Of a stretch of DNA of 49,657 bases, positions 905 to 26,799 are shown in pieces. The notes beneath the pieces were generated by a model, which saw nothing but the letters and a program-made list of their open reading frames with translations, made no database searches and was not told where the DNA came from. The stretch is taken from contig CAMASG010000008.1 of assembly GCA_945860945.1 (NCBI GenBank), forward strand, positions 1-49,657, in the 5' to 3' direction. Source of the stretch: Akkermansia muciniphila (lineage in GTDB: Bacteria; Verrucomicrobiota; Verrucomicrobiia; Limisphaerales; SIAT01). Within the stretch, counting starts at the first letter, position 1. Each line of letters starts with the position of its first letter. Made by a program: the position numbers and the translations under genes.

Positions 905-1028
905 GCGCGGCACGCTTTTCGTCGGACTCCGGTTCTTGCGGGAGTCGCTCAGTGGATGAGCAGTCCCGCGTTTGCAGGAAATCGAAGAACACGACGCATC
1001 CGTAAGTCCGACCAGCAATCGAACAATC

Positions 1029-3473
<2,445 letters not shown>

Positions 3474-3508
3474 GCTACGAGCTGACAGCCAACCTCCAGC
3501 GGACGACG

Positions 3509-3529
3509 ACTAACAACTAATCACTAAAA
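3509..3529. repeat. Heptanucleotide tandem repeat, 3 units
   Basis: Three consecutive 7-bp units read actaaca, actaatc, actaaaa, ending three bases before the ATG of the DUF1552 gene. The tract occupies the position where a Shine-Dalgarno sequence would be, and contains none. It shares its 7-bp period with tracts at 4908-4942 and 24668-24695. Confidence 0.6.
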
Positions 3530-3532
3530 GCT

Positions 3533-4906
3533 ATGAGCAACTACCTCTCACAATCCTGGCTGATGGATCGCCGTCACGCCCTTCGTGCCATCGGCACTTT
3601 CATCTCGCTGCCGATGCTGGAATGTATGGTGCCGCTGCGGGCGGCGGAGAAAACTGCCACGCCAAAGCGCAGCGTCTTCATCTACCTCGCCAATGGCGTT
3701 CACTCGCTGAACTACCAGATCACCACGGCGGGAAAGGATTACCAGTTCTCCCGGTCGCTGAAGCCATTGGAGAAGCACCGCGCAGTCATCACGCCCATCA
3801 GCGGGTTGCATCACCCAGGAGCGCTCAGCCACCACCACAACTGCATCAACGTCTGGCTCACCGGCGGAAAGCTCGGCCCGTCCGACCGCAACACCATCTC
3901 CGTGGACCAGAAGATGGCCGAGATGACCGCGCCGCTCACCCGTTACCCATCGATGGAGGTCGCCATCTCGCAGGATTCCCTCGCTTGGACAGCAGACGGC
4001 GTGCGGCTGCCCGCGATGCGTCGTTGCAGTGAAATCTTCGCATCCCTCTTCGAAGAACCGAAGGGCGGCAAAACGGTCCAGCGCCGGTCCTTGCGCCGCA
4101 AAGGTAGTGTGCTCGACGCCAACCTCGCCGAAGTGCGCCAGCTCGAGAAAAAGATGGGCGCTGGGGACAAGGGACGCATGGAGCAATACCTCACCTCCGT
4201 CCGCGAGGCGGAGATCCGCACGCGGCGCGCCGATGCATGGCTCGACACGCCGTTGCCCGTCGTCTCCGACGCCGACCGCAAGCGCACCAACCGCGACGTC
4301 GCCGCCACCCTGGCGGGCGATTATTTCCGCACCGTGTATGACCTCATGGTGCTCGCCTTCCAAACGGATGTGACGCGCGTGGCCACCTTCAGCCTGGGGG
4401 GAGAAGGAGATGCCATCGCCATTCCCGAGATCGGCATCACCGAGTCGCGCCATCAACTCAGCCACCACGGCGGCGATGCCGGCTACATGGAGAAGCTCAC
4501 CAACTACGACACCTTCGCCATCGAGCAGTTCAGCTATTTCCTCACCCGGCTCGGCGAGACCAAGGACCTCGGCGGCAAGCCGCTCTTGGGATCCACGATG
4601 GCGCTCTTCGGCAGCGGCATGTCCTACGGCCACAGCCACGGCAACGCCAACCTCCCGCTGGTGCTCGCCGGCGGCTCCGACCTCGGCCTGAAACACGGCG
4701 GTCACCTCGACCTCAACAAGTCGGCCGCAGGATTCCAAGGCTACGCGCTCGGCACCGACGGCGCGCTCACCAGCGCGCACTACCATCTCTGCAGCCGTCC
4801 CGCGAACTCGGACGCCCACATGAGTAACCTCCTTCTTCTCATGGCGCAGCGCATGGGCGTGGCGACCGACAAGTTTGGCGACAGCAACAAGGTGATCGCA
4901 CTATGA
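3533..4906 (+). CDS. DUF1552 family secreted protein
   Basis: This 457-residue protein belongs to the DUF1552 family, which in PVC bacteria almost always accompanies a DUF1592/cytochrome protein; I infer that the two act on the same unknown substrate outside the cytoplasm. The N-terminus has [20 protein letters not shown], a Tat-like or atypical export signal with twin arginines before a hydrophobic stretch. Hallmarks include [19 protein letters not shown] and [18 protein letters not shown] near the C-terminus, a conserved family block. Several His-rich stretches ([17 protein letters not shown]) could bind metal; that is inference. No Shine-Dalgarno is present; a 7-bp repeat tract abuts the start. 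The stop codon overlaps the next gene by 4 bp (ATGA), so the two are translationally coupled. Confidence 0.9.
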
Positions 4907-6159
4907 AGATCTTCGTTCTTGGTTCTTTGTTCTTGGCTCTTGGATTGCGCACAGCAACCGCAGCTGATGATCCCTTCCGCCCCGAAGCCGGGAAGTTTCC
5001 CCCGCTGGAAAAAGCGCACTCCTACCGCGGCGAACTCGTGTTCGTGGACCATGCCAACCGCCGTGGAAGTATTCGAGTGCAGGGATCGGGCATGTTTTTC
5101 CGCAACGACCCGCACCCCTTCGCCATGCTCCCCTACGGTATCGTCCGTTATCTCGGCGCACCGGCGGATTTGCGGGACATCCCGCTCGGCACGGTGATGC
5201 ACGTCCGAGCCTTTCTCCCGCCCGACCCGAAGATTTCCGCCGTGCCGGTGTTGCCGGTCAACAGCAAGAAGATGGACGGAAACCACAATCGCGGTGCCGG
5301 CATCGCACCCGCCGAGAACCACGTCCTCCTCCTCGAAGACGAGCCCAGCCAATGCCAGCGCGAGGGAATGGTCTGGAAGCTCAAGGAAGTGGACCTCAAG
5401 AATCGCGAAGGCATGATCATCGCCACCCGAGAACCGAAGCAAGGCGGAGACATCAAGGCGACCGAGGAAAAGATGACCTTCGATGCCGCCACCCGAATCT
5501 GGCGCGGCCGCGAATGCCTCGGGATCGAAGATTTGATCACCGAGAGTGCGTGGCCCGCTGAAGGGAAGAAATCCCTCGGCAACCAACCCGTCCTGCTCGG
5601 CATCACCTGGAAACCCGCACCGGATGGCATTTTCACCCGCTTTCACATCTCGGACATCTGGCTGGATGACGCCGCGATGCAACGCGCCGCCCACAACCAA
5701 ACCGAAACGCACAAGGCCTTCATCCGCAGCCGATGGACGGCCGCGTGGATTGATTCCGTCGAGTATGGCAAGTTTGGCCGCGCCACTGTAACCGCGACCC
5801 TGTTCGGGGGCATGGACGCTTCCATCTACGCCGATTTCACAAAAGGCAGCCCCACCATGATGAATGCGGTCGAGAATACTTTGAAGCACACCCACGGTGC
5901 CTACGGCCCCGCGCACATGGCCTCACGAGGGACCACCCTGGACGTCATCAAGCTGCCCGGAGAGGCGCCTCTGGGGAGCAGCGGCATTCAAATCCGATTT
6001 GAGACCGACCTCATCATTGAAGGCATCCGCCCCGGCCGGACGGTCCGCGTCCGCCCCGGCAATTGGCCTCGGGTCCAGGTGCCTCGGGAGGAATACCTTA
6101 ACGATGCGTCCAACCTTGACGAGCGCTTCCCGACTCCGGCTATCTTTCCAAAATACTGA
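4903..6159 (+). CDS. Secreted protein of unknown function, third gene of the DUF1592/DUF1552 operon
   Basis: I do not recognise this 418-residue protein. It starts with a signal peptide ([15 protein letters not shown], likely cleaved after ATA before ADDP). After that it is soluble with no further membrane helix. Visible features are a basic, aromatic-rich N-terminal third ([44 protein letters not shown]), which may be an OB-like or beta-barrel fold. A middle [26 protein letters not shown] segment and a C-terminal block [21 protein letters not shown] follow. Conserved-looking His and Asp residues are scattered, but I see no known catalytic motif or haem site. The ATG overlaps the DUF1552 stop, and a plausible ribosome site (AAGGTGA, about 7 nt upstream) lies inside that gene, so co-translation with the DUF1552 gene is likely. 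Its signal peptide is partly encoded by a 7-bp tandem repeat. Confidence 0.8.
4908..4942. repeat. Heptanucleotide tandem repeat, 5 units, inside a signal peptide
   Basis: Units gatcttc, gttcttg, gttcttt, gttcttg and gctcttg run head to tail immediately after the start codon of the secreted protein at 4903. Translated in frame they give most of the hydrophobic core of its signal peptide ([12 protein letters not shown]). Confidence 0.65.
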
Positions 6160-24075: not shown

Positions 24076-26799
24076 ATGAGCCACAACCTTTTCAACTCGC
24101 TCCAGAAATTCGACCTCGGCAATGGCAAGCAGGGGAAGTTTTATTCGCTGCCCGCATTGGAAGCCGCCGGTGTCGGCCCCATCTCGCGTCTGCCGGTCTC
24201 CATCCGCCTCGTGCTGGAATCGGTGCTGCGCAACTGCGACGGCAAAAAAGTCAGCGAAGCGAACGTGAAGGAGTTGGCGAACTGGAAGGCGACCGAGACG
24301 CGCACGGCGGAAATCCCGTTCGTGGTCGCGCGCATCGTGCTGCAGGATTTCACCGGCGTGCCGCTGCTCGTGGATCTTGCGGCGATGCGCACCGCCGTCG
24401 CCAAGCTCGGCAAGAATCCGAAGATCATCGAGCCGCTCGTGCCGGTGGATCTCGTCGTGGATCACTCGGTGCAGGTGGATTTCGCCGGCGCGCCCGATTC
24501 GATGGCGCGCAATCTCGAGCTGGAGTTCAGCCGCAATCGCGAGCGCTACCAGTTCCTCAAATGGGGCATGCAGGCGTTTGACACCTTCAAGGTCGTGCCA
24601 CCCGGCATCGGCATCGTGCACCAAGTGAATCTCGAATACCTCGCCAAAGGCGTGCTGTCTTCTCCATCAACTTTCAACTCTCAACTCTCAACCATTTACT
24701 ATCCCGATACGCTTGTCGGCACCGACTCGCACACCACGATGATCAACGGACTGGGCATCGTCGGCTGGGGCGTTGGCGGCATCGAAGCCGAGGCGGGCAT
24801 GCTTGGTCAGCCGGTTTATTTTCTCACACCCGATGTCGTGGGCGTTCAACTGAGCGGCGCGATTTGCGAAGGCGTCACCGCCACCGACGTCGCGCTCACC
24901 GTCACGCAAATGCTGCGCAAGGCGAAGGTCGTCGGCAAGTTCGTGGAGTTCTTCGGTCCGGGCGCGGCGGCGTTGCCGCTCGTGGACCGCGCGACCATTG
25001 CGAACATGGCGCCCGAATACGGCGCGACGATGGGCTTTTTCCCCATCGACGAGGAATGCGTGAATTACCTGCGCGCCACCGGCCGCAGCGACGCGCACTG
25101 CAAGCTCTACGAGAATTATTACAAAGCGCAAGGTCTGTGGGGCATTCCGCAAGCGGGCCAGATTGATTACTCGCAAGTCGTCGAGCTGGATTTGAGTAGC
25201 GTGAAGCCGAGTGTCGCTGGACCGAAGCGTCCGCAGGATCGCATCGAGTTGGGCAATCTGCGCCGCGAATTCTTCAACGCCGTGCAGCGGCCCGTCGCTG
25301 AAAACGGTTTTGGCAAATCGCGGCAGGTCTTCGGCAAGTCGGTGAAAGTCGAGATGGCTTCAAAGAAGAAGGCGAGCATCGGCACCGGCTCCGTGGTCAT
25401 CGCCGCCATCACGAGCTGCACGAATACCAGCAACCCGAGCGTGATGCTCGCCGCCGGTTTGCTCGCGAAGAAAGCCGTTGAGCGCGGGCTGAAAGTGAAT
25501 CCCGCCGTGAAGGCGTCGCTCGCGCCCGGCTCGCGTGTCGTCACCGATTATCTCAAGAAGACCGGCCTCACGCCGTATCTCAACAAGCTTCGTTTCAACA
25601 CCGTCGGCTACGGCTGCACGACGTGCATCGGCAACTCCGGCCCGCTCGATCCGGCCATCGAGGATGCCGTGGTGAAGAACGATTTCGTCACGGCTAGCGT
25701 GCTCTCCGGCAACCGCAACTTCGAGGCGCGCGTGCATCAGAACGTGAAGTCGAACTTCCTCATGTCGCCGCCGCTTGTCGTCGCGTTCGCGCTCGCGGGC
25801 CGTGTGGATATTGATCTCGGCTGCGAACCGCTCGGCACTGGCAAAGACGGCGAGCCGGTTTATCTCGCCGATCTCTGGCCGACGTTGCAGGAGGTCCGCG
25901 ACGCGATGCAGAGCGCGCTCAAGCCGGAAATCTTCCGCAAGCTCTACAAGAATTTCGCCGCGCAAAATCCGAAGTGGAACGAGATCCCGTCCAGCATCGG
26001 CAACGTGTATGAGTGGGACGCGAAGAGCACCTACATCCAAGAGCCGCCGTTCTTCACGAATTTCTCGATGCAGCCGGGAAGCATCAAGCCGATCACCGGC
26101 GCGCGTCCGCTGGGCATTTTTGGCGACAGCGTGACGACCGACCACATCTCGCCCGCCGGCGCGATCAAGAAGAGTTCGCCCGCCGGAAAATTCCTCGGCG
26201 ACAACGGTGTCGAGTTCGCCGACTTCAACAGTTACGGCTCGCGACGCGGCAATGACCGCATCATGACGCGCGGCACCTTCGCCAATGTGCGCATCAAAAA
26301 CCTGATGCTCGGCGGCGAAGAAGGCGGCAACACCATCGGGCCTGATGGCGTGAAGACGTCCATCTACGACGCGGCCATCGCATATCAAGCGAAGGGCATG
26401 CCGCTCATCGTGATCGCCGGACAGGAATATGGCACCGGTTCATCGCGCGACTGGGCTGCGAAAGGCACGAACCTGCTCGGTGTGAAGGCCGTCGTCGCGC
26501 AGAGCTTCGAGCGCATCCACCGCAGCAACCTCGTTGGCATGGGCGTGCTGCCGCTGCAATTCAAGGAAGGCACTACCGCGCAGACGCTCAAGCTCGACGG
26601 CACGGAGACCTACGACATCGTCGGCCTCGACGCGTCCATCAAGCCGCAGCAAGACCTCACGCTCAAGATTACGCGCAAGAATGGCGCTGTGGAAAACGTG
26701 AGCGTCCGTTGCCGCATCGATACGCCCATCGAGATTGATTACTACCAACACGGCGGCATCCTGCCGTTCGTCCTGCGCCAACTCGTGGCGCAGGCGTGA
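24076..26799 (+). CDS. acnA: Aconitate hydratase A
   Basis: Aconitase isomerises citrate to isocitrate in the TCA cycle using a [4Fe-4S] cluster. The 907-residue protein is of the AcnA/IRP1 type. Cluster ligands are C448 ([10 protein letters not shown]), C514 and C517 ([12 protein letters not shown]). Also visible are [19 protein letters not shown] with the catalytic His and Asp, and the swivelling C-terminal domain with [24 protein letters not shown] and [17 protein letters not shown] segment at about residues 194-208 ([13 protein letters not shown]) is unlike other aconitases: it is encoded by a 7-bp tandem repeat and sits just before YPDTL, where other AcnA enzymes have a variable loop (for example SELQDGEWIA in E. 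coli). The frame is kept, so the enzyme should work. No Shine-Dalgarno is visible. Confidence 0.97.
24668..24695. repeat. Heptanucleotide tandem repeat, 4 units, inside acnA
   Basis: Units caacttt, caactct, caactct and caaccat run head to tail in the coding sequence of aconitase, adding or replacing a Ser/Thr-rich loop ([10 protein letters not shown]). The tract is AT-richer than the flanking codons. Confidence 0.7.

Follow-up and report, generated by a model that had tools for sequence, protein, structure and literature searches.

The hydrophobic core of the signal peptide of a protein of 418 amino acids was found to be encoded by a degenerate tandem repeat of five 7-bp units, which is probably a captured intergenic (GTTCTTN)n repeat that now serves as signal peptide (in relatives, as signal peptide plus linker) and is kept as coding sequence. 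It looks like a natural case of non-coding repeat DNA supplying a working targeting signal, and the tract is very probably not an on/off switch. The window, i.e. the whole stretch of 49,657 nucleotides that was analyzed, is contig C8 of a genome that totals 2.63 Mb over 131 contigs and whose relatives are Verrucomicrobiota. The features of the region are the following.

972–3473, + strand: planctomycete-type cytochrome protein (PSCyt1/DUF1587-1592-1588-1585; profile match), first gene of the operon.
3505–3532, + strand: short degenerate heptamer, with ACTAA recurring every 7 bp, immediately 5' of the DUF1552 start (seen by eye).
3533–4906, + strand: HXXSHH/DUF1552 protein, upstream operon gene (PF07586, E=5.8e-81).
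4903–4906, + strand: ATGA overlap joining the start of the 418-aa gene and the stop of the DUF1552 gene (from the sequence; seen in many relatives).
4903–6159, + strand: 418-aa protein with predicted export, of a family of Verrucomicrobiota and Planctomycetota (from the sequence and comparison with relatives).
4903–4968, + strand: signal-peptide coding region, with an n-region MK, a hydrophobic core and an A-x-A type cleavage region (from the sequence and relatives).
4908–4942, + strand: degenerate (GTTCTTN)5 heptamer tract coding for the hydrophobic core (from repeat finding, periodicity and the family scan).

The 418-aa gene is apparently the last of an operon with the PSCyt1/DUF1592-type and DUF1552 genes. 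Judging from its sequence, the N-terminus of the protein looks like an ordinary Sec signal peptide, and the protein would be secreted. Searches of Pfam, NCBIfam and PDB with the protein sequence returned no match, and the route to its function through AlphaFold and Foldseek was abandoned, the model being poor (mean pLDDT 57) and the matches not credible. In relatives, the place of the heptamer at 3505–3532 is occupied by NAAGAAC arrays or IVP elements.

The tract reads GATCTTC GTTCTTG GTTCTTT GTTCTTG GCTCTTG and spans codons 2–14 of the ORF. The initial annotation had traced the hydrophobic core to five 7-bp units, and the repeat proved to be real: it was matched by TRF (4910–4943, period 7, 4.9 copies, 85% matches), and lag-7 matches were found at 24 of its 29 positions, the top value among all 36-base stretches of the 49.7-kb window. 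The units, however, are imperfect; no two neighbouring ones are exact copies, and the longest exact repeat is shorter than two units. The observed lag-7 identity was reached by none of 20,000 synonymous recodings, in which the peptide and the local codon usage were kept fixed, and by none of 20,000 shuffles of codon order, indicating that a signal peptide rich in Phe and Leu does not by itself account for the tract. GC3 was 0.50 in the tract versus 0.76 in the remainder of the gene.

Some properties of the unit follow from the genetic code. As 7 mod 3 = 1, the GTTCTTN strand yields one hydrophobic cycle, FLVLGSW, whichever frame is read, and the opposite strand, NAAGAAC, likewise yields the hydrophilic cycle QEPRTKN. 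The peptide encoded by three units had been described as hydrophobic and non-repeating; the former holds, but the 21-bp cycle yields a repeating heptapeptide in all frames. Because the unit is 7 bp long and stop-free in all six frames, unless its seventh base is A, any frame works, and insertion in either orientation can give a usable protein part. A seventh-base A creates a TAG stop in the sense-strand cycle, and this base was found in 1 of 141 coding signal-peptide units versus 54 of 233 intergenic units (p=2e-11), a contrast to which species base preferences contribute, the intergenic set having been drawn from two genomes; in linker units it was found in 4 of 89 (p=3e-5).

In a species-level genome collection, 214 candidate stretches encoding relatives of the 418-aa protein were found, of which 80 were fetched and retained, all from Verrucomicrobiota and Planctomycetota, with mature parts about 74–93% identical over the full length. 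Tandem copies of family members were frequent. The closest relative (L006, 93%) comes from a MAG that bears the name Klebsiella pneumoniae, evidently in error, and that belongs to the same group. Both strands of the 160 nt that precede the conserved beginning of the mature part were scanned for (GTTCTTN)n, with 200 dinucleotide shuffles for each copy. A significant sense arm was present in 40 of 81 copies and a reverse-complement arm in 27, at least one arm being present in 45; a survey of signal-peptide regions of relatives for 7-bp repeats, as the initial annotation had proposed, thus recovered them in signal peptide and/or linker. In the same scan the gene bodies of the 81 copies never reached arm-level heptamer scores. 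Where both arms were present their order was always GTTCTTN, 35–95 nt, NAAGAAC (22/22). The GTTCTTN arm lies in the signal peptide, encoding FLVLGS(S/W)FLVL..., and the NAAGAAC arm in the linker just after it, encoding EPRTKNQE-type sequences past the cleavage site; an FLVLGSS-like start is common to most family copies. The window gene itself (L086) carries the family repeat, defined as GTTCTT with a variable seventh base in at least three units, with a score of 8 that was reached by 0 of 200 shuffles. The NAAGAAC partner, which is usual rather than constant, was absent downstream of its tract (p=0.3), and 36 of 79 relatives on the tree had no heptamer signal.

One family member (L247/L260, G228:C127) showed a pair of heptamer signal peptides in succession (MKKFLVRGSLFFVRG...MKKFLVLRSLFFV), perhaps through duplication of the start region. 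In four copies devoid of GTTCTTN (L085, L062, L076 and L019), other short N-terminal repeats were noticed by eye (GGTCAATCCAAAC, TTAATC, CACTCCA).

The same heptamer was then considered outside the gene. In two heptamer-rich relatives, G144 and G236, only 1 of 26 and 5 of 36 tracts, respectively, were mainly coding (p=4e-20 and 6e-19), against a baseline of 82–85% of coding DNA according to a simple gene caller. Inward-facing pairs were found in both, with GTTCTTN near the left gene and NAAGAAC near the right gene (p=0.03 and 0.02). Across 79 loci, 67 of 95 tracts stood just before a family member. In the genome of the window, a two-unit pattern search detected the heptamer only at the 418-aa gene and around a second operon copy on contig C124 (G000:C124; L004, L088), the paralogue of which carries both arms and is cut by the end of the contig; in that copy a NAAGAAC array precedes the start of the DUF1552 gene. 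There being hardly any such intergenic heptamers in this genome today, the tract was there probably inherited or arrived with the operon. A reversed control pattern for the TTCTTGG search was uninformative, since reading the unit backwards gives the same repeat. Among 23 heptamer-rich genomes, every ORF longer than 160 aa found to start with ATGA-(0–14 nt)-GTTCTTN heptamers belonged to this one family, and the idea that heptamers are a general source of signal peptides was discarded on these grounds. A further heptamer-start ORF, of 152 aa, in L255 looks spurious. Literature searches with the letters of the repeat or of the peptide found nothing.

Signal peptides were exchanged between family members. 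Copies L068 and L080, 98.5% identical in their mature DNA, carry signal peptides unrelated to each other, the similarity stopping at the border, and the same was observed for L032 and L026, the mature genes of which are 95.9% identical. Such near-identical mature genes with unrelated signal peptides indicate that 5' ends were replaced without the rest of the gene. In a tree built from 79 mature proteins, the state with or without arms changed at least 13 times along well-supported branches. Family copies that have, lack or exchange heptamer signal peptides on near-identical mature proteins make the origin and replacement of signal peptides testable.

Capture could have proceeded as follows. 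The source would be the (GTTCTTN)n repeat that is intergenic in many genomes of Verrucomicrobiota and Planctomycetota, typically as an inward inverted pair GTTCTTN...NAAGAAC between genes. In the operon, the junction of the DUF1552 and secreted-protein genes would be translated, the ATGA overlap providing the start of the captured reading frame. The GTTCTTN arm would supply the hydrophobic core, and the spacer between the arms would code for the last part of that core and for the cleavage site of the signal peptide. In about a third of relatives, the NAAGAAC arm would give a hydrophilic QEPRTKN-type linker past that site. Once coding, stop-making units would be selected out, and the length would be frozen or altered by three units. 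The window gene would have retained the signal-peptide arm alone, and the C124 paralogue both. Creation of a signal peptide from the repeat, as initially suggested, is thus plausible, heptamers being mainly intergenic and forming inverted pairs elsewhere; the event itself, and its direction from intergenic to coding, are what we infer, and no two genomes were found to have one locus as intergenic DNA in the first and as signal peptide in the second.

The initial annotation had further proposed that gain or loss of a unit would shift the frame and act as a phase switch. The tract would then be a phase-variable contingency locus like Neisseria opa, in which slipped-strand mispairing of 7-bp units toggles secretion. 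Like the CTCTT pentamers of opa, which lie in the leader-peptide region and have a switching rate of about 1e-3 per cell and generation (PMC3960869), it is a non-triplet tandem repeat within a signal-peptide coding region, and one or two units more or fewer in the window gene would indeed truncate the product at 16–102 aa, three units remaining in frame. However, contingency loci are built of uninterrupted, near-identical units of varying number, and here five imperfect units were found, with no two exact copies adjacent, and unit number, which was compared between species only, was stable. Thus, L081 and L084, with mature DNA identical at 95.6%, have intergenic arrays in the same operon that differ by whole units, one by exactly 28 bp and another by about 42 bp, but a signal-peptide tract of equal length without indel; tract length was also equal in L020, L037 and L023, and in L047 and L066. 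The sole length difference among aligned pairs, between L021 and L032, is of 21 bp, i.e. three units, in frame. Stop-making units have been purged from coding copies. Unlike those of opa, the GTTCTTN units are degenerate, keep the reading frame and do not vary between close relatives, and their reverse-complement arm codes for a linker. The dynamics of the tract are the opposite of those of a contingency locus; we abandon the phase switch as highly improbable, and caution that a repeat of non-triplet length can lie in a signal peptide without being one.

Repeated capture has a counterpoint in the confinement of heptamer signal peptides to one gene family among the genomes scanned, since much of the distribution is explained without it if one old heptamer signal peptide was passed down and disseminated through recombination. 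Accordingly, a single ancestral heptamer signal peptide and linker could have arisen once and been inherited and swapped by homologous recombination between copies and species, the intergenic heptamers being parallel or derived. The restriction to this family in 23 genomes, the FLVLGSS-like start of most copies, the observed exchange of signal peptides and the location of 67 of the 95 tracts just before a family member are all in keeping with it. Yet G144 and G236 have many intergenic pairs at a distance from family members, the presence of the heptamer is patchy on the tree, and the reverse-complement arm in the linker is left unexplained by descent alone, so that we regard a single origin as possible but rather unlikely. 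A T-rich, Phe/Leu-rich signal peptide might also have drifted into a 7-bp repeat through local slippage under weak constraint, given that signal peptides tolerate almost any hydrophobic sequence and that heptamers are over-represented among bacterial repeats (PMC4692102). Such convergence is very hard to reconcile with the recurrence of the same GTTCTTN unit in many species, with its reverse complement past the cleavage site in a constant order, and with a periodicity that synonymous recodings never produced; we give it little credence. Capture of an intergenic repeat is thus the reading that we retain.

Other heptamer repeats share part of these traits. The available text of PMC4692102 describes the GGGAATC heptamers of Xanthomonas, and related repeats of Nostoc, as degenerate, variable in length and mostly of about four units, situated near the ends of ORFs (those after stops on the coding strand, those before starts on the non-coding strand) and often forming convergent inverted pairs. 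The inward-facing inverted geometry at gene borders is common to GTTCTTN; by contrast, the GGGAATC repeats are G-rich, of other sequence and lineage, and are not reported in that text to be used in signal peptides. The TAACTGA direct repeats of Beggiatoaceae and cyanobacteria are, like GTTCTTN, intergenic near start codons, with a few copies in ORFs, mostly near protein ends, but their forward unit has stops in all frames, and no recurrent use in signal peptides is reported (PMC4679880, available text).

Inverted heptamer arrays were also found around genes for the IVP/S23 four-helix-bundle protein (PF05635; loci L188–L217), which are intergenic and flanked by mutually inverted arrays of short tandem units, mostly 7 bp long; peaks were seen at lags of 7 and 14. 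The arrays vary from gene to gene, complementarity being 16.4 within own pairs versus 8.6 for mismatched pairs (p=6e-11). At least three of these loci (L188, L197 and L206) lie directly 5' of the DUF1552 gene of the same operon type. A link between IVP elements and the signal-peptide arms is put forward as a hypothesis; most IVP flanks carry other heptamers, so the link would be to the kind of repeat and not to the GTTCTTN unit itself. Some of the arrays flanking intergenic PVC IVP genes are nonetheless GTTCTTN. An IVP gene within the signal-peptide element was ruled out, as no PF05635 match was found in the genome of the window; unlike the intervening-sequence elements of 23S rRNA (IVS/S23; PMC4990558), the signal-peptide element has no IVP gene and lies outside rRNA.

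More broadly, small mobile elements of Planctomycetota and Verrucomicrobiota that have heptamer arrays in inverted orientation, either with an IVP/S23 gene or empty, might insert at gene borders, their stop-free arms repeatedly becoming protein parts: signal peptide and linker here, and surface loops in enzymes such as aconitase. We hold this extension only tentatively, and doubt that it applies in full. Within the window, a loop-like indel of aconitase (24076–26799) contains, in frame, a (TCAACTC)3.7 heptamer at 24667–24692. The insert is missing in a genome of the same genus, and other heptamers (AAATCCG and TCTCAAA) occupy the same aconitase loop in L221 and L222.
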